A stretch of 64,000 bases of DNA, from contig NZ_FNBH01000004.1 of NCBI RefSeq assembly GCF_900102265.1, forward strand, positions 62,001-126,000. Reading direction: 5' to 3'. Of this stretch, positions 43,876 to 62,980 are shown in pieces. This stretch comes from Epilithonimonas hungarica (GTDB lineage Bacteria > Bacteroidota > Bacteroidia > Flavobacteriales > Weeksellaceae). The first letter of the stretch is position 1; every line of letters starts with the position of its first letter. The notes below the pieces were generated by a model, which did not search any database, was not told where the DNA came from, and saw only the letters and a program-made list of their open reading frames with translations. Both the position numbers and the translations under genes were made by a program.

Positions 43876-44596
43876 GATTTACTATTTATTTTATGTAGAT
43901 TGGCTACCCAAAGAAAAAGTCTTACAGCAGAAGAGGCAATTGAAGTATCATTTGCGAGTTGGCGCAGTATAAAAAAATTAGTAGTGTTTGCCAGACATTC
44001 GCTTAACAAATCTTAAAAATAGATTTATATTTACATGATCAGTTTTCCAACTTTTAGAGCGTCAGTTTTCGATCGAAGATGTGGGGCAGCGGATACACTT
44101 TCGCTCACCGTCAGAATTTTCCACTCAGTTCTCGGTCCATGTCAATCATCTTAACAGAGCCGTGAAAGAGGTTAAAAAAAAACAACTTCGGAAATTATTG
44201 CCGGGCGCTTATTACACGAGTCGAAAATTTTACTCAGGCATACCGAATGGAATGTTTCGGAAATCGCCTATTCACTAGGTTTCAAAGAAGCTACACACTT
44301 TAATGATTTCTTCAAGAAAAATATGCAAATTACCCCGATCCGGTTTCGGGAAATGAAGTAGATCTTTGAATATCGACTTATAGGAACTGATGTAAAAGTA
44401 TTTTCAGAATAATTTATCCTTTTGATCTTTTTGCTTCCGGTAATACTGTGGATTTTTGCTATAAATGAACCAATGGAAAAAGCAGGTTTGGTTTGACGTA
44501 AAACTTACAAATAAAGTACTGGGAAAATGATGGAATATTTATTGCACAAGTGAATTGTGTGTTTGCCTTACTTCTATTAAATTAAAAATCATCGAT
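43876..44596. other. Decayed region between hydrolase and ku
   Basis: This stretch holds an AraC-type remnant (44039-44361, listed separately). Before it, a plus-strand frame without a start (about 43899-44015, RKSLTAEEAIEVSFASWRSI, ending in a stop) reads like the end of another gene that I do not recognise. The last 230 bp before ku show no clear promoter. The region looks like a graveyard of broken genes next to the NHEJ operon. Confidence 0.5.
44039..44361 (+). pseudogene. AraC family regulator remnant, truncated and frameshifted
   Basis: The first part (FQLLERQFSIEDVGQRIHFR, then FSVHVNHLNRAVKEV) is followed, after an A9 tract at 44174-44182, by the rest of the HTH in the -1 frame: SEIIAGRLLHESKILLRHTE, SEIAYSLGFKEATHFNDFFK and PIRFREMK with a TAG. 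Together they form one AraC C-terminal domain. The N-terminal sensor is missing; a TGA at 44036-44038 closes the frame on the left. It cannot make a working regulator as read. Confidence 0.75.
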
Positions 44597-45376
44597 ATGA
44601 GAGCAATTTGGAACGGAGCAATAGGATTTGGACTAGTCAATATTCCTATCAAACTATATTCGGCAACGGATTCAAGCACTCTTGATCTTGATATGCTGGA
44701 CAGTAAGGATCTGAGCAATATCAGATTCAAGCGTGTCAATGAAAAAACAGGTAAAGAGGTGGTTTGGGAAAACATCGTAAAAGGTTACAAAATCGAAGAT
44801 AAATACATCGTTCTGAATGATGAGGATTTTGAAGCCGCAAGTCCTGAGAAATCTAAAGTTTTAAGTATTTCTCAATTTGTAAAAGAAACTGAAATTGATC
44901 CGGCATTTTTTGAAACGCCTTATTTTTTGGAACCTCAGAAGAATGGAGAAAGTGCTTACAAATTATTATTAAAGGCCTTGACCAAAACTAAAATGGCTGG
45001 CATTGGTTCATTTGTTTTGAGGGAACGAGAGGTTCTCTGCCTTATTCGTCCTTATGAAGATAAGATATTAATGGTCAACAGAATGCGTTATCCTGAGGAA
45101 ATGCGGGATTTTGAGGATTTGAAGATCCCATCAGGCAGTGCGCCAAAACCTGCTGAATTGAAAATGGCAGAGCAGCTGATCAAATCTTTGGCAACAACTT
45201 TTGAACCTACGAAATATAAAGATACTTACAATGCAGACCTTTTGAAAATTATCAAACAAAAAGCAAAAGGTAAAAAAATAAAACTGGCGGAGGTTAAAGA
45301 ACCGGAAGGTAAAGCTACCGACCTGATGGCAATGTTGAAGGCCAGTCTGGAAAAAGGTAAGAAGAAAGCAGGATAG
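44597..45376 (+). CDS. ku: Ku protein, non-homologous end joining
   Basis: The ATG at 44597 gives 259 residues and the family start MRAIWNGAIGFGLVNIPIKL; a longer frame from 44555 is rejected. Bacterial Ku core motifs follow: NIRFKRVNEKTGKEVVWENI, VKGYKIEDKYIVLNDEDFEA, FETPYFLEPQKNGESAYKLL, GIGSFVLREREVLCLIRPYE and RYPEEMRDFEDLKIP. The C-terminus is Lys-rich (KGKKIKLAEVKE, LEKGKKKAG). Ku homodimers ring broken DNA ends and recruit LigD. It lies 20 bp upstream of the LigD 3'-phosphoesterase part on the same strand, so they are one operon. Confidence 0.96.
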   Translation: MRAIWNGAIGFGLVNIPIKLYSATDSSTLDLDMLDSKDLSNIRFKRVNEKTGKEVVWENIVKGYKIEDKYIVLNDEDFEAASPEKSKVLSISQFVKETEIDPAFFETPYFLEPQKNGESAYKLLLKALTKTKMAGIGSFVLREREVLCLIRPYEDKILMVNRMRYPEEMRDFEDLKIPSGSAPKPAELKMAEQLIKSLATTFEPTKYKDTYNADLLKIIKQKAKGKKIKLAEVKEPEGKATDLMAMLKASLEKGKKKAG

Positions 45377-45395
45377 TACTTAAAAAAAATAAGAA

Positions 45396-46007
45396 ATGGC
45401 TTTAGAAGATTATAATAAAAAACGGAATTTCAAAGAGACATCTGAACCGGAAGGCAAAGAAAAAGCGAGTGGAAAGAAACTGAGATTCGTGATTCAGAGA
45501 CATGCTGCTTCGAGGCTCCATTATGATTTTCGTCTCGAGATGGAGGGGGTTCTGAAAAGCTGGGCAGTTCCAAAAGGCCCTTCGCTAAATCCTTCTGACA
45601 AACGTTTGGCAATGATGGTGGAAGACCATCCGTATTCTTACAGAACATTTGAAGGTTCGATTCCAAAAGGTAATTATGGTGCTGGTGAAGTCGAGATATG
45701 GGATGAGGGAACTTATGAGCCAATCGAAAAAATAGAAGGAAAAAGCGACGATCTTGTAATGCGTGCGGAACTTCATAAGCAGTCACTGAAATTCACTCTT
45801 CACGGAAAAAAACTGAAAGGCGAATTTGCATTGGTGAAAATCAAAAATTCTAAAGATGAAAATGCGTGGCTGCTTATCAAACATAAGGATATATTTGCCG
45901 TTGATCAAGATTATAATGCTGAGGACCATACTTTAAAAACTTCCAAAGTAACCGCTTATCTCGAAGAGAAAGAAGGTAAAAAAAAAATACTTCCGCCGAA
46001 AGCCTGA
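45396..46007 (+). CDS. ligD: LigD N-terminal part: 3'-phosphoesterase domain
   Basis: This 203-residue frame holds the LigD phosphoesterase (PE) domain: RFVIQRHAASRLHYDFRLEM (metal His and Asp), GVLKSWAVPKGPSLNPSDKR, AMMVEDHPYSYRTFEGSIPK and NYGAGEVEIWDEGTYEP. PE trims 3'-phosphate and ribonucleotide ends. In family members of this layout it is fused to the ligase-polymerase part. Here the frame stops at 46005-46007, about 20 bp after an A10 tract (45978-45987). The -1 frame past the tract reads SAESLKHYKNYAPALSGEKK and runs into the ligase domain. So this is the first half of one LigD gene, broken or joined by slippage. Confidence 0.9.
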   Translation: MALEDYNKKRNFKETSEPEGKEKASGKKLRFVIQRHAASRLHYDFRLEMEGVLKSWAVPKGPSLNPSDKRLAMMVEDHPYSYRTFEGSIPKGNYGAGEVEIWDEGTYEPIEKIEGKSDDLVMRAELHKQSLKFTLHGKKLKGEFALVKIKNSKDENAWLLIKHKDIFAVDQDYNAEDHTLKTSKVTAYLEEKEGKKKILPPKA

Positions 46008-46072
46008 AGCATTATAAAAACTATGCACCGGCACTTTCCGGCGAAAAAAAGCTATCAGAATTTATCAAGCCA

Positions 46073-47935
46073 ATGCTTTGTAAAGTCTCTGATAAAGCAT
46101 TTGATGACAAGGATTGGGCATTTGAGATCAAATGGGATGGCTACCGCGCGATTGCTGACTTAAGCAAAGATGAGATCCGATTATACTCCAGAAATGGTAT
46201 CGATTTTTCTCAGAAATTCAAAAAAATAACGAACTCATTTAAGTTGCAGGAACATCCGATGGTTCTTGATGGTGAGATTGTCGCTTATGATGATAAAGGA
46301 AAACCTAACTTCCAATGGCTCCAAAGAATTGGTGATAACCCGGATCTTGCATTGATCTTTCAAGTTTTTGATCTGTTGTGGCTGAATGGACATTCAACGG
46401 AGGATCTGTCTTATCTGCAACGAAAAGAATTATTGAAAGAGGCTTTAGTAGAAAATGAGATCATCAAATATAGTGACCACGTTCTAGAACATGGCAAAGA
46501 ATTTTTCCAGGCTGCTAAAGATATGGGATTGGAAGGGATTGTTGCCAAGAAGACAGACAGTACTTACAAAGAGAATCTCAGAAGTTCAGAGTGGCTGAAG
46601 ATCAAGATCCATAAAAGCGATGAAGCGATCATTTGTGGATTTACTGCACCAAAAGGCTCGAGGAAAAAGTTCGGAGCATTGATCCTGGGGAAATATCTTA
46701 ATGGTGAAATGGTATTTTGCGGCCACACGGGCGGTGGTTTTAATGATCGATCACTTTCCGAGATTTATGATAAGATGCAACCCCTGATCACAGAAAAACC
46801 GGTATTTAAAATCACGCCTAAAACCAATACCAAAGCTACCTGGATAAAACCGCAACTGGTTGCTGAGATCAAGTTCACGGAACTGACAAAGGATTTTATT
46901 TACAGGCATCCGATATTCCTCAGGCTAAGGGATGACATCAAACCTCAGAATGTAGAATTTAATTCTGAGAATCTAGAAAAAGAAGAGATTATGAAAAAAG
47001 CGGAACCCCAAAAAAGAACCGGAAAAGATGATCTGATAAAGAAAATAGGAAAGCAGGAACTGAAACTGACCAACCAGAACAAGATCTATTTTCCGGAAGA
47101 TGATATTACAAAAGGTGATGTGATAGACTTCTATCAAAGCATTTCAAAATATATTTTGCCACATCTGAGAGACCGTCCGCAATCTATGAACCGTTATCCT
47201 AACGGTATCAAAGGTTTAAGTTTTTTCCAAAAAGATGCCGCAGAAGAAACGCCGGACTGGATAGAAACGCAAAAGGTCTTTTCGGAAAGTTCTGACAAAT
47301 ATATCAATTACATTATTTGCAACGATAAAGAAACGTTGGCTTATCTTAATAATCTTGGTTGCATCGAATTGAATATCTGGACCAGCAGGGTCAAAAAAGC
47401 AGACAATCCGGATTATCTCGTTCTTGACCTTGACCCATCTGAAAAAAACTCTTTTGAAGATGTAATAGAAACCGCTCAGGCTGTGAAAGAAGTTCTGGAC
47501 CTGGCAGGAGTTGATGGTTATCCTAAAACGTCGGGCAGTTCAGGGATTCATATTTATATTCCGATGAATGCAAAATACTCATACGAGCAGGTTAAAGATT
47601 TTGGACATCTTTTGATGCAGATGGTTCAGCAAAGATTACCAGATTTGACGACCTTGGAAAGAAGCCTTCAAAAAAGAGATAAGAATAAGATTTATCTGGA
47701 TTATCTTCAAAATAGAAGAGGGCAGACTCTGGCAAGTGTTTACAGCCTCCGTCCGAAAAATGGTGCGCCGGTTTCAATGCCTTTAGAATGGGAAGAAGTT
47801 AAAAATGGACTCATACCCACGGATTTCAATATTCATAATTCATTAGACCGACTGAAAGAAAAAGGCGATATCTTTAAACCCATTTTGGGAAAGGGAATTG
47901 ATATGTTGAAAGCAATCAGAAAGTTAGAAGAATAA
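46073..47935 (+). CDS. ligD: LigD C-terminal part: ATP-dependent DNA ligase and polymerase domains
   Basis: The frame codes the LIG domain (about 1-300): DKDWAFEIKWDGYRAIADLS with adenylated Lys20, MVLDGEIVAYDDKGKPNFQW, LEGIVAKKTDSTYKENLRSS and SEWLKIKIHKSDEAIICGFT. The POL/primase domain (about 325-620) follows: KIYFPEDDITKGDVIDFYQS, RPQSMNRYPNGIKGLSFFQK, YLVLDLDPSEKNS (catalytic Asps) and KTSGSSGIHIYIP. The ATG at 46073 falls inside the conserved FIKPMLCK block, and the same frame is open back to at least 45983, past the A10 tract. The natural protein is therefore probably PE-LIG-POL of about 850 residues. Acts with Ku in end joining. Confidence 0.92.
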   Translation: MLCKVSDKAFDDKDWAFEIKWDGYRAIADLSKDEIRLYSRNGIDFSQKFKKITNSFKLQEHPMVLDGEIVAYDDKGKPNFQWLQRIGDNPDLALIFQVFDLLWLNGHSTEDLSYLQRKELLKEALVENEIIKYSDHVLEHGKEFFQAAKDMGLEGIVAKKTDSTYKENLRSSEWLKIKIHKSDEAIICGFTAPKGSRKKFGALILGKYLNGEMVFCGHTGGGFNDRSLSEIYDKMQPLITEKPVFKITPKTNTKATWIKPQLVAEIKFTELTKDFIYRHPIFLRLRDDIKPQNVEFNSENLEKEEIMKKAEPQKRTGKDDLIKKIGKQELKLTNQNKIYFPEDDITKGDVIDFYQSISKYILPHLRDRPQSMNRYPNGIKGLSFFQKDAAEETPDWIETQKVFSESSDKYINYIICNDKETLAYLNNLGCIELNIWTSRVKKADNPDYLVLDLDPSEKNSFEDVIETAQAVKEVLDLAGVDGYPKTSGSSGIHIYIPMNAKYSYEQVKDFGHLLMQMVQQRLPDLTTLERSLQKRDKNKIYLDYLQNRRGQTLASVYSLRPKNGAPVSMPLEWEEVKNGLIPTDFNIHNSLDRLKEKGDIFKPILGKGIDMLKAIRKLEE

Positions 47936-49087: not shown

Positions 49088-50311
49088 TTATCCTGCTAGC
49101 CGTTCAAAGTGTTCGCCAAGTAATATTACCTGTTGTTGATGATTGATATAATTGAGAAACATCTGCTCTGTCGAGTGGCCAGTAGCCCGGATTAGCAATG
49201 GAGTGGGGATTTTCCCATAAAAATTAGTAGCGAAACTTCTTCTGCCAACATGGCTGGTCATGACCTCCCATTTCTCCACATTTTCTATTCGACTTCTGAA
49301 GCCTCGCTTTTTTCTTGTCCTCAGTATCTCGGTCAGGCCAGACAGTTTTGCAATTTCTTTTATTTGCCTGTTATAGATTTGTGGCGACAGATGTTTTGGG
49401 AAATCATCCTCACTTTGTTCCATGATCTTTTTAATGTTCGGATGAAGGGGAAGCAATATATGCTTCTTTGTTTTCTTTTGGAAAAATGATAAGCACGGTT
49501 TTCCATCGATGAATTGCAGTTGTTCTTTGGAAAAATTCATGAAATCTGAAATCCTTTGTCCTGTATAGCAACTGATAATTAGCCATTTTTTTGCATCCTG
49601 CAAAGCTTTTGGAACTTTCAGTTCTTCTATTTTGTTAAGTTCCTGTTCGGAAAGAGTTATGATATTTTTTAGATGTGCGGTCTTTTTTACTACCAATTCT
49701 TCACTATATGTCCGTATGCCTTTTCTTGCTGCGAAATTGAGGATAGTTCTGACAAAATATATGGTCCTATGTATAGTGCTCTCGCAATATTCCTCTTTTT
49801 TTCCAAATAGTAGAAAATTCTTTACAAAATCAGAATTTACACTTTCAATAGATATCCTTTTGGAGATATATCCTTCAAAGCGTTCCAGAAGACGTAAAAA
49901 GACCTTATATCGCTTCATCGTGGAATTACTTATCAATCCATTCTTTTTTTCGATATATTCTTTCACATAAAATAAAAGGTCGTCTTTCTGATGCTCGATT
50001 TCTTTTTGAAAAAAGTATTTTTTGATATGAGATATCAGAATCTTTTGTGAGATGATCTTCTTTTTCATTATTCTTTCCTTGATATTCTCCGTTAGAAAGA
50101 TCTTTAGCCTGTCTAATTTGGCATTCAGTACCTTATGTTTTTTCAGATAGATGTTTTTTGGACGTTGCCTTTCTATATCCCATTCCTCACTAGTGATGCG
50201 CAAAGGCAGCGGAAAGAGAAGCTCGATCTTTAAGTTTTCATCTGTTAAGTTTAGGTTTATACTGCAAGTGCGGGATCTATTGCAGGGAGAAATAAAATAA
50301 TAAAAATTCAT
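49088..50311 (-). CDS. Tyrosine recombinase / site-specific integrase
   Basis: The ATG at 50311 gives 407 residues (MNFYYFISPCNRSRTCSINL), starting with an arm-binding-like domain (LRITSEEWDIERQRPKNIYL). A SAM-like core-binding domain follows (GLISNSTMKRYKVFLRLLER). The catalytic domain holds the family residues: Arg in CYTGQRISDFMNF, Lys in SFFQKKTKKHILLPL, His/Arg in SHVGRRSFATNFYGKI and His/Tyr in ATGHSTEQMFLNYI. Relatives act as integrases of conjugative elements or as DNA invertases. No element ends or phage genes are near. Instead its start faces a segment bounded by perfect 21-bp inverted repeats, which supports an invertase role. Confidence 0.93.
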   Translation of the reverse strand: MNFYYFISPCNRSRTCSINLNLTDENLKIELLFPLPLRITSEEWDIERQRPKNIYLKKHKVLNAKLDRLKIFLTENIKERIMKKKIISQKILISHIKKYFFQKEIEHQKDDLLFYVKEYIEKKNGLISNSTMKRYKVFLRLLERFEGYISKRISIESVNSDFVKNFLLFGKKEEYCESTIHRTIYFVRTILNFAARKGIRTYSEELVVKKTAHLKNIITLSEQELNKIEELKVPKALQDAKKWLIISCYTGQRISDFMNFSKEQLQFIDGKPCLSFFQKKTKKHILLPLHPNIKKIMEQSEDDFPKHLSPQIYNRQIKEIAKLSGLTEILRTRKKRGFRSRIENVEKWEVMTSHVGRRSFATNFYGKIPTPLLIRATGHSTEQMFLNYINHQQQVILLGEHFERLAG

Positions 50312-50358
50312 CGTTGAAAATATTTTAATATTAATATTCAACGAAATTACAATAAAAG

Positions 50359-50379
50359 GGAGTCTAATCTAGACTACTT
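50359..50379 (+). repeat. Inverted repeat, left (IRL)
   Basis: 21 bp starting GGAGTCTAATCTAGACTACT, perfectly complementary to the copy at 50735-50755. Inside it AGTCTA-ATC-TAGACT is itself a dyad, as expected for a recombinase or dimeric repressor site. It lies 48 bp upstream of the recombinase start. Confidence 0.9.
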
Positions 50380-50734
50380 ATTTTCAATATGATCATGTGT
50401 CAATGAAACATATTTTAACCTTGCGAAATTACACACGTATTTAATTAAATATTTGAGTTTGTTGTAAGAAATTCGGAAATAAACTTCGATTTATTCATTA
50501 TTCTTTTAGTTTAAAAAAAATATTTAACTTTCTGGACATCATTCATTTGCATGAGATTAATTCCGAATTCATAACATCATTTATCAGATTTTTATCAAAT
50601 TGAAGCTTTTCATATGTCTGATCTTATTTATAGAATTGTTTTAAATAATTTAAAATGTTAAGACAGTCCTCTATGTAGCCGTTTTATTAGTCTTTTTTTA
50701 TAAGATATCTTGTGTTAAAACAAGTTAGCAACAA
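50380..50734. other. Candidate invertible promoter segment
   Basis: 355 bp of AT-rich DNA without a gene between the perfect inverted repeats. It separates the recombinase gene (leftward) from the secreted-protein gene (rightward). In a DNA switch the promoter would lie here. I find only 7-of-8 -7 boxes inside it (for example AATATTTG at 50448-50455); a perfect TACTTTTG on the minus strand (50732-50739) straddles the right edge, but without a TTG. So the promoter cannot be placed from sequence alone. Confidence 0.55.
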
Positions 50735-50755
50735 AAGTAGTCTAGATTAGACTCC
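50735..50755 (-). repeat. Inverted repeat, right (IRR)
   Basis: The exact reverse complement of IRL, 21 of 21 positions. It ends 16 bp before the ATG of the secreted-protein gene at 50772, so it would lie in that gene's 5' leader. Confidence 0.9.
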
Positions 50756-50771
50756 TTTTGTACTAAGCCAA

Positions 50772-51374
50772 ATGATGAAAATAACACAAATAAAATGGGA
50801 TGTATACCAGAAATCTCATATGGGCAGTAAATTGTTTACATTTTTGCTGTTTTTATCGTTGTGTTGCAATAATGCTTTTGGGCAAGTTTATATTAATGAG
50901 GGAACGGTAGTTATTGTAGAAAACGAGGCTTTTATTTGTGGAAGCGAAGTGGTCAAGATTCCTGGAAACTTTTCAGATACACATATTACCAATGATACTT
51001 TAGATTTTACAGTAAATGAGGAAATATCTATGGCTCACAGTATCAAAGAGGTTAAAAAGCAGATGCCTAGACCAGAGCCGGAAATTGAAAAAATTGTAAT
51101 GACCGAAGAAGTTGCCACTTATAATTTTTCTTCTGGGACAGACCAATATTTTACCTTTTTCAAAAAGAACGGAAATATTACTACAGTTCTCATTCAGAAT
51201 CCTACCTTATTGACTCCTTTCCAACCTGTAGTTGAGCAGGATAAAGATTTTACTTTTTTTTCTATATTATCACCTGAAAAATTATCAGAGCTATACAAGA
51301 ACAGCTCATTATATTCCTCTTCAGCAATACGTCCGCCTCCACCAGAAGATGTCCCGGCAATGCAGAATTCCTAA
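50772..51374 (+). CDS. Secreted protein of unknown function
   Basis: This 200-residue protein has a hydrophobic signal region around residues 18-38 (KLFTFLLFLSLCCNNAFGQ). Alternative starts are the second ATG at 50775 and the ATG at 50820 (MGSKLF), which gives the shortest signal peptide. The mature part is beta-rich in its first half (VYINEGTVVIVENEAFICGS) with a Pro-rich linker (KKQMPRPEPEIEKIV) and a C-terminal proline run (IRPPPPEDVP). No family recognised. It is the first gene after the inverted-repeat segment and so the most direct candidate for switched expression. Confidence 0.7.
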   Translation: MMKITQIKWDVYQKSHMGSKLFTFLLFLSLCCNNAFGQVYINEGTVVIVENEAFICGSEVVKIPGNFSDTHITNDTLDFTVNEEISMAHSIKEVKKQMPRPEPEIEKIVMTEEVATYNFSSGTDQYFTFFKKNGNITTVLIQNPTLLTPFQPVVEQDKDFTFFSILSPEKLSELYKNSSLYSSSAIRPPPPEDVPAMQNS

Positions 51375-52084
51375 AATAGGATTTTTTGTTTTCATCATGT
51401 CTCCCAAAAAAAACCATAGGAATACTGTCATGGTCCTATGTCCTTTTAACTGATATATCAGCTACTTTCAAAATTAGTTATAGGTTGTCTCAAAAGGGAT
51501 AAATGACCCATGATAATCACATAAAGTTTCCTGTCTAAGAAAAGATCATAAGATTTTATGAGCTGTATCTTTTCAGCCTTCCACTTGATTGGGCTAATTG
51601 AGAATTGCTTGAGATCAATATTTTTCATGATTGTACAATCATCAAGTTTATTATCAATGATTCGTCCTGCGTATGGAGGCATATTTCCACATGTGAAAAA
51701 ATTGAATATAGGCATAATAATAAAATGCCACTTTTTCCCCACTCATGTAATCGCTAATGATTTTTTGGGATCAGAGGGCTCAAACTTTAATTTCATAATA
51801 TATGGCAATCCACTTGGGAAATGGATCTAATAATTTGAAGTACCACTTAATAATATTTGTAAGATCTGTGGTGTCAATAACAAGACAGCAGGTGTTTCAA
51901 GATGATATAATATGTTTCAGCGAAGCTGGATAATACAATTATAGTTCATAACAATTAAAAACACACTAAAAAAATGAAAAAAATGGAAACTTAGTTGAGC
52001 AACTTACAATGCTGAGAGTTATAAATTTTAGCTCTTTATTAAAAGCTATCTAAGCTTTAAAATACTATTTAATAACACAAATTT
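51375..52084. other. 710-bp non-coding stretch, possible insertion-element remnant
   Basis: Two overlapping open frames on opposite strands (51458-51742 and 51558-51830) have no recognisable content and I do not call them. A weak hairpin (CATAGGA at 51415-51421 with TCCTATG at 51434-51440, then TCCTTTT) may end the 50772 gene. GGTTGTCTCAAAAGGG at about 51484-51499 resembles the terminal repeat of some insertion sequences, but no matching partner end was found. The last 80 bp before 52085 must hold the leader of the giant gene; TAAATTTT near 52023 is a 7-of-8 -7 box. Confidence 0.4.
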
Positions 52085-55000
52085 ATGAAACCAAAAATCA
52101 ATTTTTTCCAGAGGCATAACTTCAGGTTAGCATGGTTTGTTTTGATGACATTTAGTGGAATTACCACTATAAAGTCACAAAATCTGCTGACCGAGAGTTT
52201 CAATTATGCTTCCGGGACAACACTGACGACAGCCAATTGGACGGTGCTGGCAGCGGGAACACCTGCTGTCAATGTATCTTCCGGAAATTTGGCCTATCCG
52301 GGTACCCTTGCTAATAATTTGGGGAATAAGGTATCCTTAACAGCAACAGGACAGGATGTCTTGCGTAGCTTTACAGCGGTCACACTTAATGCAACTACAC
52401 CGGCAGTATATGCCAGTGCTATTGTAAATGTGTCGACAGCACAGGCTACAGGAGATTACTTTATGTCTCTGAATAATAACCAGGTATATATCAGATCAAA
52501 TGGCGCTGGATTTAGTTTTGGAGTACTGAGAGCAACAGGTACTGTTAGCTACGAATCTACCGTAAGATCTTTTAACACCAATATCAGGATTGTTCTGAAA
52601 TACGAACAGGTGACAGGAGCTGCTAACAATATTGTCAAACTGTATGTAAATCCTCCATTGGAATCTGAGCCTGCGGTGGCTGATGCTTCCCACACAGGAA
52701 CAGCAGCAGATATTACCTCAGTTTCATATGTAGCATTAATACAGGGTGCAGCAGCCAATGCGCCTACTCTGGATGTTGATGGTATTACAGTGGGAACTAC
52801 CTGGGCAAGTATTGCCTCGGCTATTTATGACTATGGAGATGTTCCTACCACTTATGACAATACAAAAGACGGAGTTTATGCTCCTGCCACACATTCTTTG
52901 CTTACAGGTTTAAGTCTGGGAACTATTCTTCCTGATTTGGAACTGGCTCCTAACAGCGTAGCTGCAGGTGCCGATAACAATGGAACAAACGGAGATGGTA
53001 CCGATGAGGATGCCATAAACGTTTCTGCAAACCAGATTAGAAAAGGTGTACCTTATACTTTAAGCATACCTGTAACTAACACACCGGTTGCAGCGACAAG
53101 ATACTTATATGGTTGGATCGATTTTAATAGCGATGGCAAGTTTCAGTTAGAAGAAGCGGCAACTGTTGTTTCGTTTAGTACAGCAGGAAGCAGTACTCAG
53201 ACTCTTAGCTGGACAGGGGCACAAACCGGTACACTTGCTACGGGAGCCACTAAGCTTTTTATGAGAGTTAGACTATCTGATAGGTCTTTTATAAATACGA
53301 TGGACGCTACTATTGATGAAAGAAGCATTGGAAACGGAGCATTAAGTACTGGGAGTGCAGTTGATTATCCTACTGTAGCCAATGGCGAAGTAGAAGATTA
53401 TCAAATTGAAGTGGTCAATACCTTTGATTATGGAGATGTACCTGCTACCTTTGAAAATAGTAAAGATGGTGTTGCATTGCCAGCATTGCATGCACCGGTT
53501 TCAGGCTTTAACATAGGAACACTTTTAGACTTAGAGAGTGCGCCAAGCAATGTTGTTGTAGGGGCAGATAATAATGGTACAAACGGAGACGGCGCAGATG
53601 AAGATGGCATTACAGCCCTTACAAGTGTAACGCCTGGTGTTATATACAGCACTATCGTTCCTGTAAATATACCAAGTACACTTACAGGAACCAAATATCT
53701 GTATGGATGGTTGGATTTGAATGGTGATGGGCGTTTTCAGTTAGCAGAGGTTGCATCAGCAACCACTACAGCGGTAACCGCAACAAATGTAACTCTTAGC
53801 TGGACTGCTGCCCAAACCGCAACCATTGCAGCTGGAACAACGAAGATCTATCTAAGATTGAGACTTTCCAATTTAAGCTTATTTGATTTTACTACCGTTG
53901 CAAGCGGAGGTGCTACGATAGATGAAAGAAGCGTAGGAAATGGCGCTGTATCAGCTGCTGATGCCACTAATGCTCTTACTACTGCTTTTGGAGAGGTTGA
54001 AGATTATCAACTTTCGGTAGGGCTGTTTGATATGGGAGATACACCAATATCTTATGATACCTCAAAAGATGGTGTAGTTTTACCAGCTGTGCATATGGCA
54101 CTTACAGGATTTATGTTAGGGAGTGTTGCTCCAGACGTAGAGCAAGTACCAGCTAGTGTTGCGACAGGAACCGACAACAACGGAAGCAACGGAGACGGTG
54201 CAGACGAAGATGCCATCAATGTTGTTGCACATAAAATTAAAAGCAGTGTACCATATATTCTAAGTGTACCAATAAACAACCCGACTGCTGTAACCAAATA
54301 TCTGTATGGTTGGATTGATTTTAACAACAATGGTAAGTTTGAAAGTACAGAGTTTGCAACGGCTATGACAAGCGCTGTAATGGGAAGCAGTACTCCTACC
54401 CTTACTTGGACTGCTGCTCAGACAGCTACAATTACTGCCGACAAGCTTTATATGAGGCTGAGGCTTTCCAACAGAGCGTTGCTGGATTTTACGAGTGGAA
54501 CCGGTGCCGCAGATATGGATGAGAGAAGTATTGGGAATGGTGCAGCAGCAGCCGGTAATCCGGCGAATCACGCCACTCCAGTTAATGGTGAGGTAGAAGA
54601 TTATCAGATAGAGCTAGACAATACCTTCGATTATGGAGATGTACCTGCTACATTTGAAAATAATAAAGACGGTGTTGTTTTGCCTGCATTGCATGCTTCT
54701 ATTTTAGGATTTAGCATAGGAAAACTTTTGGACACAGAACTTGCTCCAACAAGTGTTGCCTCGGGTGCGGACAATAATGGAACAAACGGAGATGGTGCAG
54801 ACGAAGATGGTATTACAACTGTAACAAGTGTAAGCCCTAATGTTGCATACAGCATTAATGTTCCTGTAAATGTTCCAAACGCACTATCAGGAACCAAATA
54901 TCTGTACGGATGGTTGGATTTTAATGGTGATGGACGTTTTCAGTTAGGAGAAGTTGCAATAGGAAATGTAACGGGAGTTGGCGAACAGCTTTCAACCCTT

Positions 55001-58000
55001 ACATGGACAGTTGCCCAAACGGCAACCATTGCATCGGGAACTACAAAGATCTATCTAAGATTGAGACTTTCTAATTTAAGTCTATTTGATTTTACTACCG
55101 CTGCAAGCGGAGGCGCTACGATAGATGAAAGAAGTGTAGGGAATGGTGCTACATCTGGTGCCGTTGCTACTAATGCGCTTACTTCTCCTTTTGGAGAGGT
55201 GGAAGATTATCAATTGCCGGTTGGTCTGTATGATTTTGGAGATGCTCCAGTAGGTTATGATACGAACAGTGCTAGTACTTTTGTTCCTGCAAGACATATG
55301 GCGAATCAGTTATACACTATCGGAGCAATTGTAGACGCAGAACAAGCTGCACAAAATGTAGCTACTGGTGCTGATAACAACGGAACAAATGGTGACGGTG
55401 CAGATGAAGACGGAACAGATGTCGCTACCATTACCAGAGGAGCGCCTTTCAACTTTTTTACAAATATCAATGCGCCAGTGGCATCTAGTGCCATTGCATG
55501 GATCGATTTTAATAACGATGGTAAGTTTCAGGCTACTGAAGCAGCTTATGCTACTTCTACAGATACAACTAGTGGATACCAGACCACAACTACGGGAGCA
55601 AGCACAGTGAATTTCTGGTTTAGAGGTGCGCAAACCAGCCAAATTCCTGCGGGAGTAACCAATCTGTATGCTAGAGTAAGACTTACCGCAACTGCAGGAG
55701 CTGATGCTACTGCAACCACAGGTATTGATGAACGTTCTATAGGAGACGGAGCAGCAGGAACTACTGTTGCTACATATGGGACATATACTTTGCCTAGCTT
55801 TGGTGAAGTAGAAGATTACCGCTTTACAGTAGGAACTAACGTTTATGATTTTGGAGATGCTCCGGTAAGTTATGATATGGACAAAGATGGAACAGCTCCA
55901 TCCAACTTCAAACCGGCTAGAAATGCGGCTTCCTACAATTTGTATCTGGGAACAACTTGGGACCACGAATCTGGTCCGGCTTCTGTAACCAATCCGAATG
56001 ATGATAATAATCCTAACGGAGATGGTTCTGATGAAGATGGTATTACAGATCCTTTATATGTTAATCCGAGTGCTATTAATACCTTTACTTTAGGGGTTAA
56101 GAATTACACAGGTGCTAATGCCACATTAATGGTTTGGATTGATTTTAATAATAACGGAAGATTTGAAGTAGGCGAAAAGCAAACTGTATCTGCTCCAGTA
56201 GGAGGATATGCCCAACCAATATCTTTTACGGCAGCGCAAACTGGTGCTATTGCTACCTCAACAAACAAAGTGTATATGAGGGCAAGGTTGATACAGGCAG
56301 AAGGCGGAGTAACTCTTGGAGATAATGCTAATGCCGTAGTAGACGAATTTGCTATCGGTGATGGATTGTCTACAGGATTGTACGGATATGTCGCTCTTGG
56401 CGAGGTTGAAGACTATCAGTTGCAGGTGGTTCGTGATTTTGGAGATGTACCTGCTTCTTATGAAAATAGTAATCCTGCGTTCCAGTCTAATGGCGGAACA
56501 CCTGATGTCTATATGGGAACTGGTGTTGATTTTGAATTTGCTCCTCAAAGTGTAGCTGCCGGAGTGGATAATAATGGGACTAATGGTGACGGAACAGATG
56601 AAGATGCGTTCTCTGCACCACTGACTATTACCAGCGGAAGCCAGTTTACCATCAGGATTCCTGTAACCACAACAGGCACAACGTCCAATTTATATGGATG
56701 GATTGATTTTAATGGTGACGGAGTATTTAATGGTAATGAAGCTGCTGTGTCTACAGCTGTTACAGCCGGTCAGATGACATTAACATGGCCAGCTACCGCT
56801 GCTTCTCCAGCTGTTATTGCAGCAGGAAAAGCTTACGTAAGATTGAGACTTTCTTCTGCGGCTCTTACCAATAGTAATGCTGCAGCTCTTATAGACACCC
56901 GCAGTTATGGCGGAAGCAGTGCTTTAGGAGAGATAGAAGATTATCGATTCAATATCGTAAGCAATGTTTATGATTATGGAGATGCTCCGGCAATTTACTC
57001 CAGAAATCAGGCAGGCGTAAATGTAGAACCAAGACAGTCATTATCTGATGTATTGAGACTTGGGGCAACAATAGATATAGAATCTGCCGCAAACACAGTA
57101 GCAGATAATAACGGGACTAATGGAGACGGAACAGATGAAGACGGTATTACCACAGTAATGGCAGTGTATGAAGGAACCGCCTACTATACTGACGTAGAAG
57201 TATTCAATAATTCAGGAGCTAATAAAACGCTTTACGGATGGATTGACTTTGATAACGATGGTTATTTTGAAACTTCTGAAGTGGAAACGGTAAGTGTGCC
57301 TAGCTCTCCTACACAACAGAAGGTTCAACTAACTTGGACAAATACTTTATCAGGAACAATTCCTGTAGGAGCAACCAACGTGTATATGCGTCTTCGTATT
57401 TCAGAAGGTGCTTTAGCCGACAATGCTAATGTTTTACTGGATGAACGTTCTATAGGTGATGGCTTAACTACAGGTATATATGGAGCTGTCTTTGGCGGTG
57501 AAGTAGAAGATTATAGATTACCAGTAGCGACCACTTATGATTATGGCGATGCTCCGGTTACCTATGACGACAGCAGAAATAATGTTAATGCACCTGCAAG
57601 ACAAGCTGTCAGTAGTGCATTGTATATTGGGAATGCTGCTCCGGATTCCGAGGCAACTAAACAAACCTCAGCAACAGCAATCGGGGATGATAATAATGGG
57701 ACAGATGATGAAGATGGGGTAAAAATCTCCCCAATGTATGCAGGCGGAGGTTACGCTTATTCTGTACGTGTAAAAACATACAATAATACAGCAGGAGCTA
57801 GAACTCTTTACGGATGGGTCGATTTCAATAACGATGGCCGTTTCCAAGTTGGAGAAGCGACAACCGTATCCGTGCCTATTGCTGCAGCCCAAGGTTATGT
57901 AACTCTTAACTGGACGGCTTTGCAGAATACAATTACAGGAAGCCCAAGTAATCTAAAGTTGCGTTTGCGTTTATCTGAAGGAACTCTTACAGATTTTACG

Positions 58001-61000
58001 ACTGGAGCCCCTGGACTTTTAGTAGACGAAAGAGCCTTAGCTGACGGATTAGCTACTGGTGAATATCATGCTACAACACCTGTTATCTATAATGGTGAAG
58101 TAGAAGATCATATCATCCCTATGACGACTCAGCTTGATTATGGTGATGTTCCTGTAGATTTTGAAGAGAACTTTATAGGAGCTTCTATTCCTGCACGCCA
58201 TCGACAGGTTGAAGATCTTATGATAGGAAGCACAATTGATATTGAGAATGGTCCACAAAGTGTAACAGGCGGTTCGAATAATACCGGGACCAATGGTGAC
58301 GGTTTGGATGAAGATGGTATTGATAATACCGTTCCATTGCCTACGCTTTATTCAGGAGCAGAATATGCGACACTGATCAACGTTAAAAATAATCTTGCCA
58401 CTGCAGCAACATTGCATGCATGGATAGATTTGGATGGTAACGGAAGATTCACAAAAAGTGAATATACTTCTACTACAGTTCCGGCAAATGCGGGAGATTA
58501 TGTTAGCAAATTAAGTTGGGCTATGCCTACTTATACAAGTACAGCAAACTATACTTACATGAGGGTGCGTCTTACCAATGCTACCAGCGCCACATTTACA
58601 GATAATGACAGTACAGATAATGTGGATGAACGTTCCATAGGGGACGGGCTTGCTACAGGAGCGTATGGTACGATACCACAAAACGGCGAAGTAGAAGATT
58701 ACTACCTGCCAGCAGTGCCAAATGTAAATACTACAATAGATTGTAATAATGATGATGACCGCTTAGGCGTAGCAGATCCTTTGCAAGCCCTATTCCATGG
58801 TACTATCGTAAAACTGCGTAATTCCGAGTTTCTTGTTTTTGGAAATAGTGCAGCTGCAAATGGTACCGACCAGATGACTCCGGTAAAAGTAACCCCTGCC
58901 AACGGGTATAATTATCCCGGAGTGCCTTTGTTGCTTACGGGTGCATCTTATGTATGGAATCATCAATATATGCTGCTTTCATCTGCAGGATTATATGTAT
59001 GGGGACTAGGTAATGCTAGTGCTACTAATGCCCCTGCAGTATTTTCTGGAGGTAATAGTTTCCACCAGGTTGCATTACCTGCCGGAGTTGGCCCTGCAAG
59101 CATTCAGTTTATGGATGCAGGTATTTCTAACTCTTCTGTAGGCTCGTTGACGCTCTTGACCAAAGCAGGAGAGATTTGGGTATATTCCAATACAGTAGGA
59201 AGTAATGTACAGGGAGATGGAAATATGATCGCTACTGGATGGCATCAGGTAATGACAGATGCCGGAACACCGCTTGCCGGGATGAAAGATGTCCGTAATG
59301 TGGGAGCGTCTGCCATAGCAACAAACGGAAGCGAGTTTTATACTTGGGGTAATAATGTGTTTTTGGGAGACGGGCAAACCGCGTCCGACAAAAATTATGC
59401 AACCAAGATGACAACTCCTACCGGAATCAGCCTTCCGGTAAAACAACAGGATATTTCTCATAGTCTTTCTTCTACTTCATATTTCTTAAGAGACAGTGCC
59501 GGAAAGGTTTTTGTGTTAGGAAACAATGCTAATGGACAGTTAGGACTAGGAAATACCGTTGATTCCAAGATTTGGCGTACCATCAATTTTATGAATGAAG
59601 AGCCAAACGCTTCAGGGAATCAAACAGATGTTACGAAGCCTATCCGACCTGTTAAATGGATCGCTGCAAATAATCATGATAATAGTTATGGAACATTGCT
59701 CAATGTGATTACCGATGAAAAAAGAATCTACAGTACAGGTGAAAATGGAGGTTCTAGAAGTGGGGTAGTAAATCCAACAAGTACACAGATACTGACAGCG
59801 GTAACTATTGGGAATGGTACAGCAATGCTTCCGGGAGAGATGACCTATGTAGAAGCAGGTGGACATATATCCATAGCTGTACAAGCAGGTAGTGACCGTT
59901 TTGGTTATGTAGGGCATACCATAGATGGAAGTGATGGATGTGGAGGTTGTACAGGAACACCTACAGAATATAACTTTACCAAAACCCCAGCAATTGGGCA
60001 GGTATGTGGTAACAAGCTGCTTGATTATGGAGATCTGGATGATAGATATAATCTGGGTGATAAAGCCAGCCATGAAATTTCATACATACCGGAAGACAAC
60101 AAACTATTTTTAGGAATAGTGCCTCCGGATGCTGAAAATGGACCGCAATTTACGGTTACAGCAAGTGGCAACGATGCTTTCGGAGATGATACTACTGGAT
60201 TCCCTGATGATGAAGATGCATTAAATGCGACACATTATATACCAGCTCAACCAGCTCAACCAGCTATACCTGATAATCCTGCTACGCCTGATATAGATGA
60301 AAGTAGACCTGAAATACCTGCGCAGCCAGAAAGGCTTGAAGCATTCTTACCTGTAAAAATAGCCGGTTCAACCTATACATTAAGTATACCACTTACCAAT
60401 AATACGGGAAGCACGGCGTATCTGTATGGCTTCATCGATTGGAACTATAACGGCATCTTTGAAACAGGGGAGGCGATAGAGGTACCGGTACCTTCTTCTG
60501 TAACACAACAGACGATAGACCTTACATGGCCGGATAATCATGCCGTATGCGGAACTGAAGTTGTAAGAAGTTTTGTACGTTTACGTTTAACGACAGAGCA
60601 GTTTGTAGATGATGCCACCACGGCTGCTGACGAGCGTAGTTTCTTAGCTGCACCGGATGGAGAAGTAGAAGACTATTATGTAGATTGGACTCCGGCTGCA
60701 TGTCAGAATTTCTGCTACAAACCGGGAGCAACAACAGGAGGAGATACTCTGGATACCAAAGTAGGAATCACTTCTCTTAGCAGAGCAGGAACAGATGATC
60801 CAGATAACTGGCCAATGGTTCGTAAAGGAGGATGGATAGCTTTAGAATCCAAGACCAAAGGTTTTGTGGTGAATAGAGTCGCTTTCTCAGATGCGGACAA
60901 TGATGCTGCAACTATGGATGTACCAACAGGAATTTCTTCTGACAATTTTGTTGAGGGAATGATGGTATATGACACTACGAACAAGTGCCTTAAAATGTAT

Positions 61001-61066
61001 ACTTCCACTGATGATGGATTAACATTCGCGTGGTATTGTATCAGTACTCAGGCTTGCCCTGATTAA
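52085..61066 (+). CDS. Giant GEVED-repeat surface protein with RCC1-like region
   Basis: 2993 residues. A signal peptide (about 1-32, ending near IKSQ) is followed by a beta-sandwich ConA-like domain (about 33-245). Ten tandem modules of about 200 residues follow (about 248-2208). Each opens with DYGD, carries NNGTNGDGADEDGI, YLYGWIDFNNDGKF and DERSIGNG, and closes with GEVEDY. The DxDxDG-like loops suggest calcium binding. Residues about 2215-2610 are RCC1-like (LLTKAGEIWVYSN, FYTWGNNVFLGDGQT, FVLGNNANGQLGLGNTVDSK). An eleventh GEVED module with a Pro-rich insert follows (PAQPAQPAIPDNPATPDI), then a tail with GMMVYDTTNKCLKMYTS ending WYCISTQACPD. No type A sorting domain is seen. Likely surface adhesin or fibre. 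Confidence 0.93.
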   Translation: MKPKINFFQRHNFRLAWFVLMTFSGITTIKSQNLLTESFNYASGTTLTTANWTVLAAGTPAVNVSSGNLAYPGTLANNLGNKVSLTATGQDVLRSFTAVTLNATTPAVYASAIVNVSTAQATGDYFMSLNNNQVYIRSNGAGFSFGVLRATGTVSYESTVRSFNTNIRIVLKYEQVTGAANNIVKLYVNPPLESEPAVADASHTGTAADITSVSYVALIQGAAANAPTLDVDGITVGTTWASIASAIYDYGDVPTTYDNTKDGVYAPATHSLLTGLSLGTILPDLELAPNSVAAGADNNGTNGDGTDEDAINVSANQIRKGVPYTLSIPVTNTPVAATRYLYGWIDFNSDGKFQLEEAATVVSFSTAGSSTQTLSWTGAQTGTLATGATKLFMRVRLSDRSFINTMDATIDERSIGNGALSTGSAVDYPTVANGEVEDYQIEVVNTFDYGDVPATFENSKDGVALPALHAPVSGFNIGTLLDLESAPSNVVVGADNNGTNGDGADEDGITALTSVTPGVIYSTIVPVNIPSTLTGTKYLYGWLDLNGDGRFQLAEVASATTTAVTATNVTLSWTAAQTATIAAGTTKIYLRLRLSNLSLFDFTTVASGGATIDERSVGNGAVSAADATNALTTAFGEVEDYQLSVGLFDMGDTPISYDTSKDGVVLPAVHMALTGFMLGSVAPDVEQVPASVATGTDNNGSNGDGADEDAINVVAHKIKSSVPYILSVPINNPTAVTKYLYGWIDFNNNGKFESTEFATAMTSAVMGSSTPTLTWTAAQTATITADKLYMRLRLSNRALLDFTSGTGAADMDERSIGNGAAAAGNPANHATPVNGEVEDYQIELDNTFDYGDVPATFENNKDGVVLPALHASILGFSIGKLLDTELAPTSVASGADNNGTNGDGADEDGITTVTSVSPNVAYSINVPVNVPNALSGTKYLYGWLDFNGDGRFQLGEVAIGNVTGVGEQLSTLTWTVAQTATIASGTTKIYLRLRLSNLSLFDFTTAASGGATIDERSVGNGATSGAVATNALTSPFGEVEDYQLPVGLYDFGDAPVGYDTNSASTFVPARHMANQLYTIGAIVDAEQAAQNVATGADNNGTNGDGADEDGTDVATITRGAPFNFFTNINAPVASSAIAWIDFNNDGKFQATEAAYATSTDTTSGYQTTTTGASTVNFWFRGAQTSQIPAGVTNLYARVRLTATAGADATATTGIDERSIGDGAAGTTVATYGTYTLPSFGEVEDYRFTVGTNVYDFGDAPVSYDMDKDGTAPSNFKPARNAASYNLYLGTTWDHESGPASVTNPNDDNNPNGDGSDEDGITDPLYVNPSAINTFTLGVKNYTGANATLMVWIDFNNNGRFEVGEKQTVSAPVGGYAQPISFTAAQTGAIATSTNKVYMRARLIQAEGGVTLGDNANAVVDEFAIGDGLSTGLYGYVALGEVEDYQLQVVRDFGDVPASYENSNPAFQSNGGTPDVYMGTGVDFEFAPQSVAAGVDNNGTNGDGTDEDAFSAPLTITSGSQFTIRIPVTTTGTTSNLYGWIDFNGDGVFNGNEAAVSTAVTAGQMTLTWPATAASPAVIAAGKAYVRLRLSSAALTNSNAAALIDTRSYGGSSALGEIEDYRFNIVSNVYDYGDAPAIYSRNQAGVNVEPRQSLSDVLRLGATIDIESAANTVADNNGTNGDGTDEDGITTVMAVYEGTAYYTDVEVFNNSGANKTLYGWIDFDNDGYFETSEVETVSVPSSPTQQKVQLTWTNTLSGTIPVGATNVYMRLRISEGALADNANVLLDERSIGDGLTTGIYGAVFGGEVEDYRLPVATTYDYGDAPVTYDDSRNNVNAPARQAVSSALYIGNAAPDSEATKQTSATAIGDDNNGTDDEDGVKISPMYAGGGYAYSVRVKTYNNTAGARTLYGWVDFNNDGRFQVGEATTVSVPIAAAQGYVTLNWTALQNTITGSPSNLKLRLRLSEGTLTDFTTGAPGLLVDERALADGLATGEYHATTPVIYNGEVEDHIIPMTTQLDYGDVPVDFEENFIGASIPARHRQVEDLMIGSTIDIENGPQSVTGGSNNTGTNGDGLDEDGIDNTVPLPTLYSGAEYATLINVKNNLATAATLHAWIDLDGNGRFTKSEYTSTTVPANAGDYVSKLSWAMPTYTSTANYTYMRVRLTNATSATFTDNDSTDNVDERSIGDGLATGAYGTIPQNGEVEDYYLPAVPNVNTTIDCNNDDDRLGVADPLQALFHGTIVKLRNSEFLVFGNSAAANGTDQMTPVKVTPANGYNYPGVPLLLTGASYVWNHQYMLLSSAGLYVWGLGNASATNAPAVFSGGNSFHQVALPAGVGPASIQFMDAGISNSSVGSLTLLTKAGEIWVYSNTVGSNVQGDGNMIATGWHQVMTDAGTPLAGMKDVRNVGASAIATNGSEFYTWGNNVFLGDGQTASDKNYATKMTTPTGISLPVKQQDISHSLSSTSYFLRDSAGKVFVLGNNANGQLGLGNTVDSKIWRTINFMNEEPNASGNQTDVTKPIRPVKWIAANNHDNSYGTLLNVITDEKRIYSTGENGGSRSGVVNPTSTQILTAVTIGNGTAMLPGEMTYVEAGGHISIAVQAGSDRFGYVGHTIDGSDGCGGCTGTPTEYNFTKTPAIGQVCGNKLLDYGDLDDRYNLGDKASHEISYIPEDNKLFLGIVPPDAENGPQFTVTASGNDAFGDDTTGFPDDEDALNATHYIPAQPAQPAIPDNPATPDIDESRPEIPAQPERLEAFLPVKIAGSTYTLSIPLTNNTGSTAYLYGFIDWNYNGIFETGEAIEVPVPSSVTQQTIDLTWPDNHAVCGTEVVRSFVRLRLTTEQFVDDATTAADERSFLAAPDGEVEDYYVDWTPAACQNFCYKPGATTGGDTLDTKVGITSLSRAGTDDPDNWPMVRKGGWIALESKTKGFVVNRVAFSDADNDAATMDVPTGISSDNFVEGMMVYDTTNKCLKMYTSTDDGLTFAWYCISTQACPD
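52829..55226 (+). repeat. Tandem two-module duplication inside the giant gene
   Basis: The first four GEVED modules (boundaries at about 52829, 53422, 54027, 54622 and 55226) alternate A-B-A-B. Modules 1 and 3 share VPYxLSxPxxN and SIGNGA with NGEVEDYQIE, while modules 2 and 4 share FDYGDVPATFEN, KIYLRLRLSNLSLFDFTT and ASGGATIDERSVGNGA. The DNA of modules 2 and 4 is alike over long runs (for example around 53425 and 54625). A two-module unit of about 1.2 kb was therefore copied recently; unequal crossing-over could still change its number. Confidence 0.75.
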
Positions 61067-62309: not shown

Positions 62310-62543
62310 ATGATAAGGAAAAACACAGATAGTCGGTCTCCTCTTGGTATGACCAAGAAAGAAGTAGTGGAAGAATTTGGAAAAGGTCTGAATTCCTATA
62401 CTGATGATATCTGGCATTATAAGCTAAGCAAAACTTGGTGGGGACTAAAAACCATTATGTTCCTTGAATTTGAAAATAATATGGTAAGTGCCAAATATAT
62501 CAAACATGTATTTAAGGAGAACAAAAGATTACAGGAAAAATGA
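62310..62543 (+). CDS. Small BamE/SmpA-like protein
   Basis: This 77-residue protein has the SmpA/OmlA-type pattern: LGMTKKEVVEEFGKGLNSYT (helix that sets up the repeat), WHYKLSKTWWGL and TIMFLEFENNMVSAKYI. No signal peptide, unlike classical BamE lipoproteins. Its stop codon overlaps the ATG of the next gene by 4 bp (ATGA), so the two are coupled. The gene at 62995 has a similar pattern; the pair flanks the HTH gene. Function unknown. Confidence 0.6.
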   Translation: MIRKNTDSRSPLGMTKKEVVEEFGKGLNSYTDDIWHYKLSKTWWGLKTIMFLEFENNMVSAKYIKHVFKENKRLQEK

Positions 62544-62980
62544 ATGGTCATTTTAAGAACATACATATAGGCACCTTGGTAAAGCAAAGAGTAGTGGAGC
62601 TTGAGATGGATATACAGCGTATCTGTAATTTTTTCAAGTGCAGTAATGCAGAGATAGAAGAAATGTTCTTACAGGAAGAATTGAACACCGGTATTTTATT
62701 GAAATGGAGCAAATTATTGGAATACGATTTCTTCCGTTTATATACCCAGCACTTGATATTATATGCCCCGCAAGGGAATACGAATTATAATGACATATCA
62801 AGGCAAAAAAGATCCAAACTTCCACAGTTCAGGAAAAATATATATACCAAGGAAGTGATAGATTTCATTCTTGAAATGATAGAGAATGGCGAGAAGACCA
62901 AAAATCAAATATTGGAAGAATATAAGATCCCTAAAACGACTTTGTATAAATGGATAAGCAAATACAATTCAAAGAAATAA
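62540..62980 (+). CDS. Small two-HTH protein (often labelled transposase-like)
   Basis: This 146-residue protein has two helix-turn-helix parts. The N-terminal one (VVELEMDIQRICNFFKCSNA, EIEEMFLQEELNTGILLKWS, LLEYDFFRLYTQHLILY) resembles an XRE-like domain. The C-terminal one (TKNQILEEYKIPKTTLYKWI) resembles the HTH of IS-family transposase OrfA. No DDE catalytic domain exists, so a regulator is more likely than a transposase. Overlaps the preceding gene by 4 bp. The family seems frequent in Chryseobacterium (from memory). Possible regulator of the neighbouring surface-protein genes. Confidence 0.72.
   Translation: MNGHFKNIHIGTLVKQRVVELEMDIQRICNFFKCSNAEIEEMFLQEELNTGILLKWSKLLEYDFFRLYTQHLILYAPQGNTNYNDISRQKRSKLPQFRKNIYTKEVIDFILEMIENGEKTKNQILEEYKIPKTTLYKWISKYNSKK

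Follow-up and report, generated by a model that had tools for sequence, protein, structure and literature searches.

A tyrosine recombinase gene and an adjacent pair of inverted repeats in Epilithonimonas hungarica very probably constitute a site-specific DNA-inversion switch. The locus lies in a 64,000-nucleotide (nt) stretch of contig NZ_FNBH01000004.1 (the window, to which all coordinates refer), and a preliminary description of this DNA had proposed such a switch. Inversion is strongly supported by comparison with related loci, as judged from conserved site arms, spacers that match within each locus, co-occurrence of the sites with one recombinase clade, and both orientations among the relatives. 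The exact window segment itself is seen in one orientation only, in the window and in Epilithonimonas caeni. The features of the locus are listed below in base pairs (bp) and amino acids (aa).

49088–50341, minus strand: tyrosine recombinase, presumed invertase; 417 aa from the TTG at 50341, 407 aa from the ATG at 50311
50358–50378, no strand: proximal crossover site GGGAGTC-TAATCTA-GACTACT, overlapping the left repeat; spacer TAATCTA at 50365–50371
50380–50734, no strand: presumed invertible segment, the 355 bp enclosed by the 21-bp repeats; 92% identical in E. caeni, where it has the same orientation
50736–50756, no strand: distal crossover site AGTAGTC-TAGATTA-GACTCCT, overlapping the right repeat; spacer at 50743–50749, the reverse complement of the proximal spacer
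50772–51374, plus strand: 200-aa secreted-type protein with RPPP near the C-terminus, the first gene under the presumed switch, 16 bp after the right repeat

The left repeat (IRL, 50359–50379, GGAGTCTAATCTAGACTACTT) and the right repeat (IRR, 50735–50755) are exact reverse complements with 355 bp between them, at the positions first reported, and the pair is unique in the genome at up to 2 mismatches. The similarity continues to 30-nt arms at 90%. A 19-mer core with up to 3 mismatches recovered only IRL and IRR in the window (shuffle mean 0.03). A 15-mer core with up to 2 mismatches recovered only the same two repeats in the 3.96-Mb genome, each with 0 mismatches; for the control pattern, read in reverse, there were 2 and 4 matches on the two genome strands. 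Both repeats can be read as tyrosine-recombinase sites, with arms AGTAGTC/GACTACT (1–2 departures) flanking a 7-nt spacer. Each repeat by itself is an imperfect palindrome. The arm pattern with up to 2 mismatches occurs at 4 places in the genome: the two window sites, one next to another recombinase gene, and a weak match at a further place. The segment between the repeats was said to hold no gene, and no open reading frame (ORF) of at least 90 aa was found in 50380–50734.

The recombinase gene to the left of IRL is complete, as described earlier, and its first in-frame ATG (50311) lies 47 bp from IRL. The product matches the Pfam families Phage_int_SAM_5 (9e-12) and Phage_integrase (4e-7), both over the Pfam cut-offs. 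Residues R253, H354, R357, H379, and Y388 are invariant in five aligned recombinases including the window copy, and we take them to be the catalytic residues (R, H-x-x-R, H, Y) of tyrosine recombinases. With the catalytic domain and this set of residues, the product of 49088–50341 belongs to that family. The comparison with E. caeni gives a ratio of nonsynonymous to synonymous change (dN/dS) of 0.105 at a synonymous distance of 0.23, and by this measure the window recombinase is under purifying selection. The secreted-protein gene was likewise found where it had been placed, 16 bp to the right of IRR, as the ORF 50772–51374.

A profile of five recombinases matched 55 of 320 family genomes at E 1e-70, a few of the matches being fragments or members from outside the clade described below. 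Five candidates were scored per genome, so that the recombinase counts are lower bounds; five genomes were rescored in full. The best 80 of 147 named relative loci were taken from the genome contigs, and the locus table holds 114 rows, including L171 twice, partial rows, and near-copies. An inverted site pair upstream of a related recombinase was found at 75 loci, counting those of the window and of E. caeni; these are distinct locus ids, some of them near-identical (L022/L023, L037/L038). Of the 106 rows having 400 bp or more upstream, 76 (75 distinct ids) contained a pair, compared with none of 530 dinucleotide shuffles and none of 78 downstream control regions, the latter from those of the 106 rows that had 1 kb downstream. 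The two spacers are identical within the locus in 74 of 75 cases and between loci in 113 of 5550, with 45 distinct spacers in all. Inverted crossover sites around a short segment adjoining a recombinase are present both in the window and in this family.

In a tree of 103 rows, the site pairs are confined to one 77-row clade (100 in the Shimodaira–Hasegawa-like approximate likelihood ratio test, SH-aLRT), with none in the 26-row sister clade. The window recombinase branches deep in the site-bearing clade. Six of the 77 clade rows are without a detected pair; three have a short upstream region (L160, L084, L098) and three have one recognizable site (L018, L099, L142). The pair of L026, with two spacer mismatches, was read by eye and then located by script and stands outside the 75, and a pair of score 11 at L107 was dropped as chance. 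Locus L131 is on a contig in a metagenome-assembled genome labeled Bifidobacterium breve; it carries a Flavobacteriaceae-type recombinase and is probably mis-binned.

The motif TAnnTTTG is located 12–19 nt inside one of the sites in 65 of the 75 loci. It faces the recombinase in 62 of these, 12–19 nt before the proximal site (OFF loci), and it faces the divergent gene beyond the distal site in three (L027, L062, and L043), where it appears 18 nt before that site. In shuffled segments, which preserve base composition only, the box was found within 40 nt in a mean of 5 and a maximum of 15 cases. The trinucleotide TTG is exactly 22 nt upstream of the box in 37 of the 65. According to excerpts of PMC4747536 and PMC9723704, Bacteroides and the main sigma factor of F. 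psychrophilum share TAnnTTTG as the −7 consensus, and the B. fragilis IVp-I promoter lost its effect when this box was mutated. When whole segments were compared, all 62 OFF loci were on average forward against the OFF set, and L027, L062, L043, and L026 were inverted. The segment of L043 is inverted over its length relative to L041 and L046; the recombinase side is colinear and the distal flanks align poorly. After trimming, this inversion relative to L041 and L046 is retained. The preliminary description had asked for the opposite orientation in related genomes. Both orientations are represented among the relatives, 62 versus 3 by the box, and L043 versus L041 and L046 by alignment. The E. 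caeni copy has the orientation of the window.

These observations are consistent with the following mechanism. The recombinase encoded at 49088–50341 would bind the inverted half-site arms of both sites, and strand exchange in the matching 7-nt spacers would flip the 355-bp segment. Segments of the family usually have, near one end, a promoter motif directed outward. Transcription crossing the proximal site would enter the recombinase gene and leave the surface gene OFF. After inversion, transcription would cross the distal site and turn ON the divergent gene, which in a quarter of the loci encodes a secreted RPPP protein. We infer that the window recombinase acts on the two sites described here.

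The sites were also sought by pattern in the 320 genomes, as two sites 178–205 nt apart with the spacers left free. This motif-only scan returned 66 site pairs in 36 genomes, and the reversed pattern returned 0. All 36 genomes are among the 55 with a recombinase match, an overlap with a nominal chance probability of 10^-33, which overstates independence because the genomes are related. Both spacers agree in all 41 of the pairs that were read. A longer segment and an altered arm put the window locus outside this pattern.

The draft genome of Chryseobacterium taichungense (G214, about 30 contigs) contains 12 switches and one recombinase of the clade, whose sequence and contig position correspond to L067; the next recombinase is 34% identical. 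For 11 of the 12 switches, no recombinase is present within the fetched flanks (940–1498 bp), and for 5 of these 11 none is present in longer stretches. Each of the 12 switches lies 12–18 nt from an RPPP gene, in one case a short frame of 73 aa, and its promoter points away from that gene. The 12 loci have 9 spacers, each identical within its locus. These spacers are not strictly private because three pairs of loci share one each (e.g., ACACTTA). The arrangement suggests that one recombinase acts in trans in C. taichungense on mostly private crossover sequences. Unlinked switches were also found in G254 (one), in G060 (one, without the standard box), and in G243, Empedobacter brevis, where two are certain and two are at contig ends, so that the recombinase may sit on another contig. 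Tandem units of a switch and a surface gene occur in E. brevis at G243:C1:612144 and 613762 and at G243:C9:122313 and 124102. Two G243 loci on different contigs have the same spacer, CTTCATA, and might recombine together.

A wider model is offered tentatively, with somewhat less than even confidence. One recombinase, common arms, and 7-nt spacers that are mostly locus-specific would form a set of genome-wide addressable promoter switches. Since mainly sites of the same locus would recombine, a dozen RPPP-led operons could flip largely independently and without chromosome-scale rearrangement. At linked loci the shared promoter would drive the recombinase in the OFF state, and turning the locus ON may therefore lower the recombinase supply. 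The window would represent a deep-branching single-locus form of the system.

Several results weigh against an inversion switch. Ten of the 75 segments are without the standard box at the usual places. When 45 bp were trimmed from both ends of the segments, the orientation signal was weaker, with 53 of the 62 OFF loci still positive; trimmed L027 compared with L028 and L145, and even the OFF pair L041/L046, gave ambiguous results. The near-identical species pairs are all in one orientation, and so are the segments of the window and of E. caeni. A second recombinase of the same clade is encoded in the E. hungarica genome on contig 5 (G000:C5:1060813-1062095; L004, L167); it is 52% identical, and its neighbors are a divergently oriented gene for a secreted protein with RPPP at its end and, after that, a surface-type gene. 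This paralogous locus retains one perfect site with the spacer CTGCTTA and has no second site and no segment, and because of this it appears to be a locked switch.

The window segment is a further difficulty. Neither it nor the E. caeni segment contains TTG-N18-20-TAnnTTTG at either end; a standard promoter was sought there and not found, the best matches being at background level. Sigma-70 matches in 50300–52150 numbered 11, versus a shuffle mean of 10.9. As to the earlier claim that the 355-bp segment flips a promoter, motif and position indicate a flipping promoter in 65 of the 75 loci, but the standard promoter is absent from the window and E. caeni segments. The sites of the other 73 loci are 122–208 bp apart, and the window segment is about twice the usual length. 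Alignment of the window segment to relatives gave no orientation signal. The opposite orientation of 50380–50734 was not seen, E. caeni DSM 17710 being the only close relative found; it carries the window locus at 92% DNA identity. The 21-bp repeats and two segment ends of 36 and 39 bp are unchanged between the two, and conservation of the segment exceeds that of synonymous sites (92% identity versus a synonymous distance of 0.23). The segment may also carry a less standard promoter, perhaps one for an alternative sigma factor:

50706–50713, plus strand: weak candidate promoter box TATCTTGT of the TAnnTTGY type, directed toward the secreted-protein gene, with the distal site 30 bp further on

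Two TAnnTTGY boxes were found in the segment with 0.46 expected, and the candidate is weak for that reason. In the excerpts of PMC9723704, this box is the SM5 type of F. psychrophilum.

Three other explanations were weighed. A once-working switch may have lost its promoter in the Epilithonimonas lineage, so that the sites and recombinase persist and flipping controls no gene. The lack of a standard promoter in both segments, the loss of one site at the paralogous locus, and the doubled segment length would fit this account. We regard it as unlikely in view of the recombinase dN/dS of 0.105, the unchanged repeats and segment ends in a segment 92% identical despite a synonymous distance of 0.23, and the TAnnTTGY boxes near the distal end, a possible if weak alternative-sigma promoter. 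It is very improbable that the repeats are operators, bound by the recombinase-like protein or another repressor that regulates the divergent genes with no recombination. Each repeat is imperfectly palindromic and the proximal site is just before the recombinase leader, as an operator could be, but an operator model gives no reason for spacers to agree inside 74 of 75 loci and in only 2% of comparisons across loci, or for promoters to occur in both orientations.

An origin of the recombinase as a mobile-element integrase, with the repeats as attachment-site remnants, is extremely improbable. The protein is of the integrase family, the single site of the paralogous locus resembles an empty site, and distant tyrosine recombinases occur in phages (11 records, 26–29% identity). 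Against this, the sites are inverted and, save in the two Epilithonimonas loci, separated by only 122–208 bp, too little to hold an element; 65 of the 75 loci have a promoter box inside the segment; and no plasmid match at E 1e-30 and no phage match covering 80% of the protein were found. An integrase with direct-repeat attachment sites was rejected on the inverted sites, the lack of any ORF of at least 90 aa in the window segment, and the missing plasmid match. A shufflon, with several sites flanking coding gene ends, was also rejected; the locus has two sites only, and at up to 2 mismatches the genome adds the site of the paralogous locus and one weak match. An inversion switch remains the preferred reading of the window locus.

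The RPPP gene and possibly the next gene would be the targets of the window switch.

52085–61066, plus strand: 2993-aa GEVED-repeat surface-type protein with an RCC1-like region and 11 GEVED stretches; possible downstream target

The window RPPP protein has no Pfam or NCBIfam match at E 0.01, and the dN/dS of its gene is 0.41. The gap of 710 bp between the RPPP and GEVED genes contains no exact TTG-N18-20-TAnnTTTG and one single-mismatch match at 51619; a repeated element was sought in the gap, which is single-copy in the genome. A larger surface-type gene follows the RPPP leader gene at the paralogous locus and at 3 of 5 C. taichungense loci inspected; in the other 2 the contig ends first. 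The suggested effect on the 2993-residue GEVED protein is plausible from these layouts, with the reservation that the 710-bp gap intervenes in the window. Among the 75 divergent genes, RPPP is found near the C-terminus in 18 (19 rows, with L171 twice), and the others encode assorted secreted, membrane, or response-regulator-like proteins, named by eye. The RPPP proteins (window 50772–51374; L004, L022, L027, L208, L213–L223) are secreted-type, fast-diverging, and mostly about 180–250 aa, with little in common beyond a signal-like start and the RPPP.

Two features of the recombinase leader are leads only.

50342–50349, minus strand: candidate fixed −7 box of the recombinase, TAATTTCG, outside the segment; the −33 element is poor (TAG)
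50312–50344, minus strand: inverted repeat, a possible RNA hairpin, just 5′ of the recombinase ATG; z −3.0 in the window (40 shuffles)

A TAnnTTnG box resembling TAATTTCG is at about the same place in many relatives. Across 72 leaders, among them that of L052 cut at the wrong ATG, the inverted repeat has a mean z of −1.7 and a median of −1.4, and the stem sequences vary from locus to locus. The hairpin possibly limits translation of the recombinase.

A helix-turn-helix protein of roughly 145 aa, with a start like KDIHIG, recurs near these surface loci; it was recognized by eye at 62540–62980 and in the first ORFs of L046, L139, L149, L150, and L164. Genes presumed from motifs, by eye, to be Ku-like and LigD-like (end joining) are at 44555–47935, just upstream of the locus. 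A search of solved structures gave no match at E 1e-4.

Promoter inversion is a well-studied phenomenon of gut Bacteroidales, and that by Tsr19/BF2766 in Bacteroides fragilis was reportedly treated in Weinacht 2004 and Roche-Hakansson 2007. In fimS/FimB-FimE of E. coli, a promoter-containing element, given as 314 bp in an abstract, is flipped by tyrosine recombinases. The enzymes there are gammaproteobacterial, the target is fimbrial, and the flipping promoter is not known to drive the recombinase genes. In excerpts of PMC4747536, Tsr19 is a nearby tyrosine recombinase acting on TAnnTTTG invertible promoters upstream of surface-related genes, one recombinase serving a local and a distant promoter. 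The present family, likened to Tsr19 by description, differs in its occurrence in Weeksellaceae, Sphingobacteriaceae, and a few others, in its RPPP-led surface targets, and in having up to 12 switches with differing spacers. Mpi of B. fragilis flips many promoters (13 regions) with one recombinase, as inferred for C. taichungense, but it is a serine recombinase, and locus-specific spacers are not mentioned in the excerpts of PMC4747536 and PMC12632263. The main text of PMC5903667, as excerpted, gives inversion signatures in 1 of 5 Flavobacteriia samples and is without Chryseobacterium, Elizabethkingia, and Sphingobacterium. An excerpt of PMC13183296 names a "putative phase variation mechanism" at adhesin genes of Ornithobacterium hominis, perhaps a related case. 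Among the matches listed, there was no report of such a switch in Chryseobacterium, Elizabethkingia, Epilithonimonas, Sphingobacterium, or Empedobacter.

The simplicity of the site code allows switches to be found in a genome by pattern. If the wider model is true, common arms and mostly private spacers would explain how one recombinase serves many loci safely. The RPPP proteins are an unclassified, fast-changing secreted family, and since they mark many of the targets, their function becomes a concrete question.

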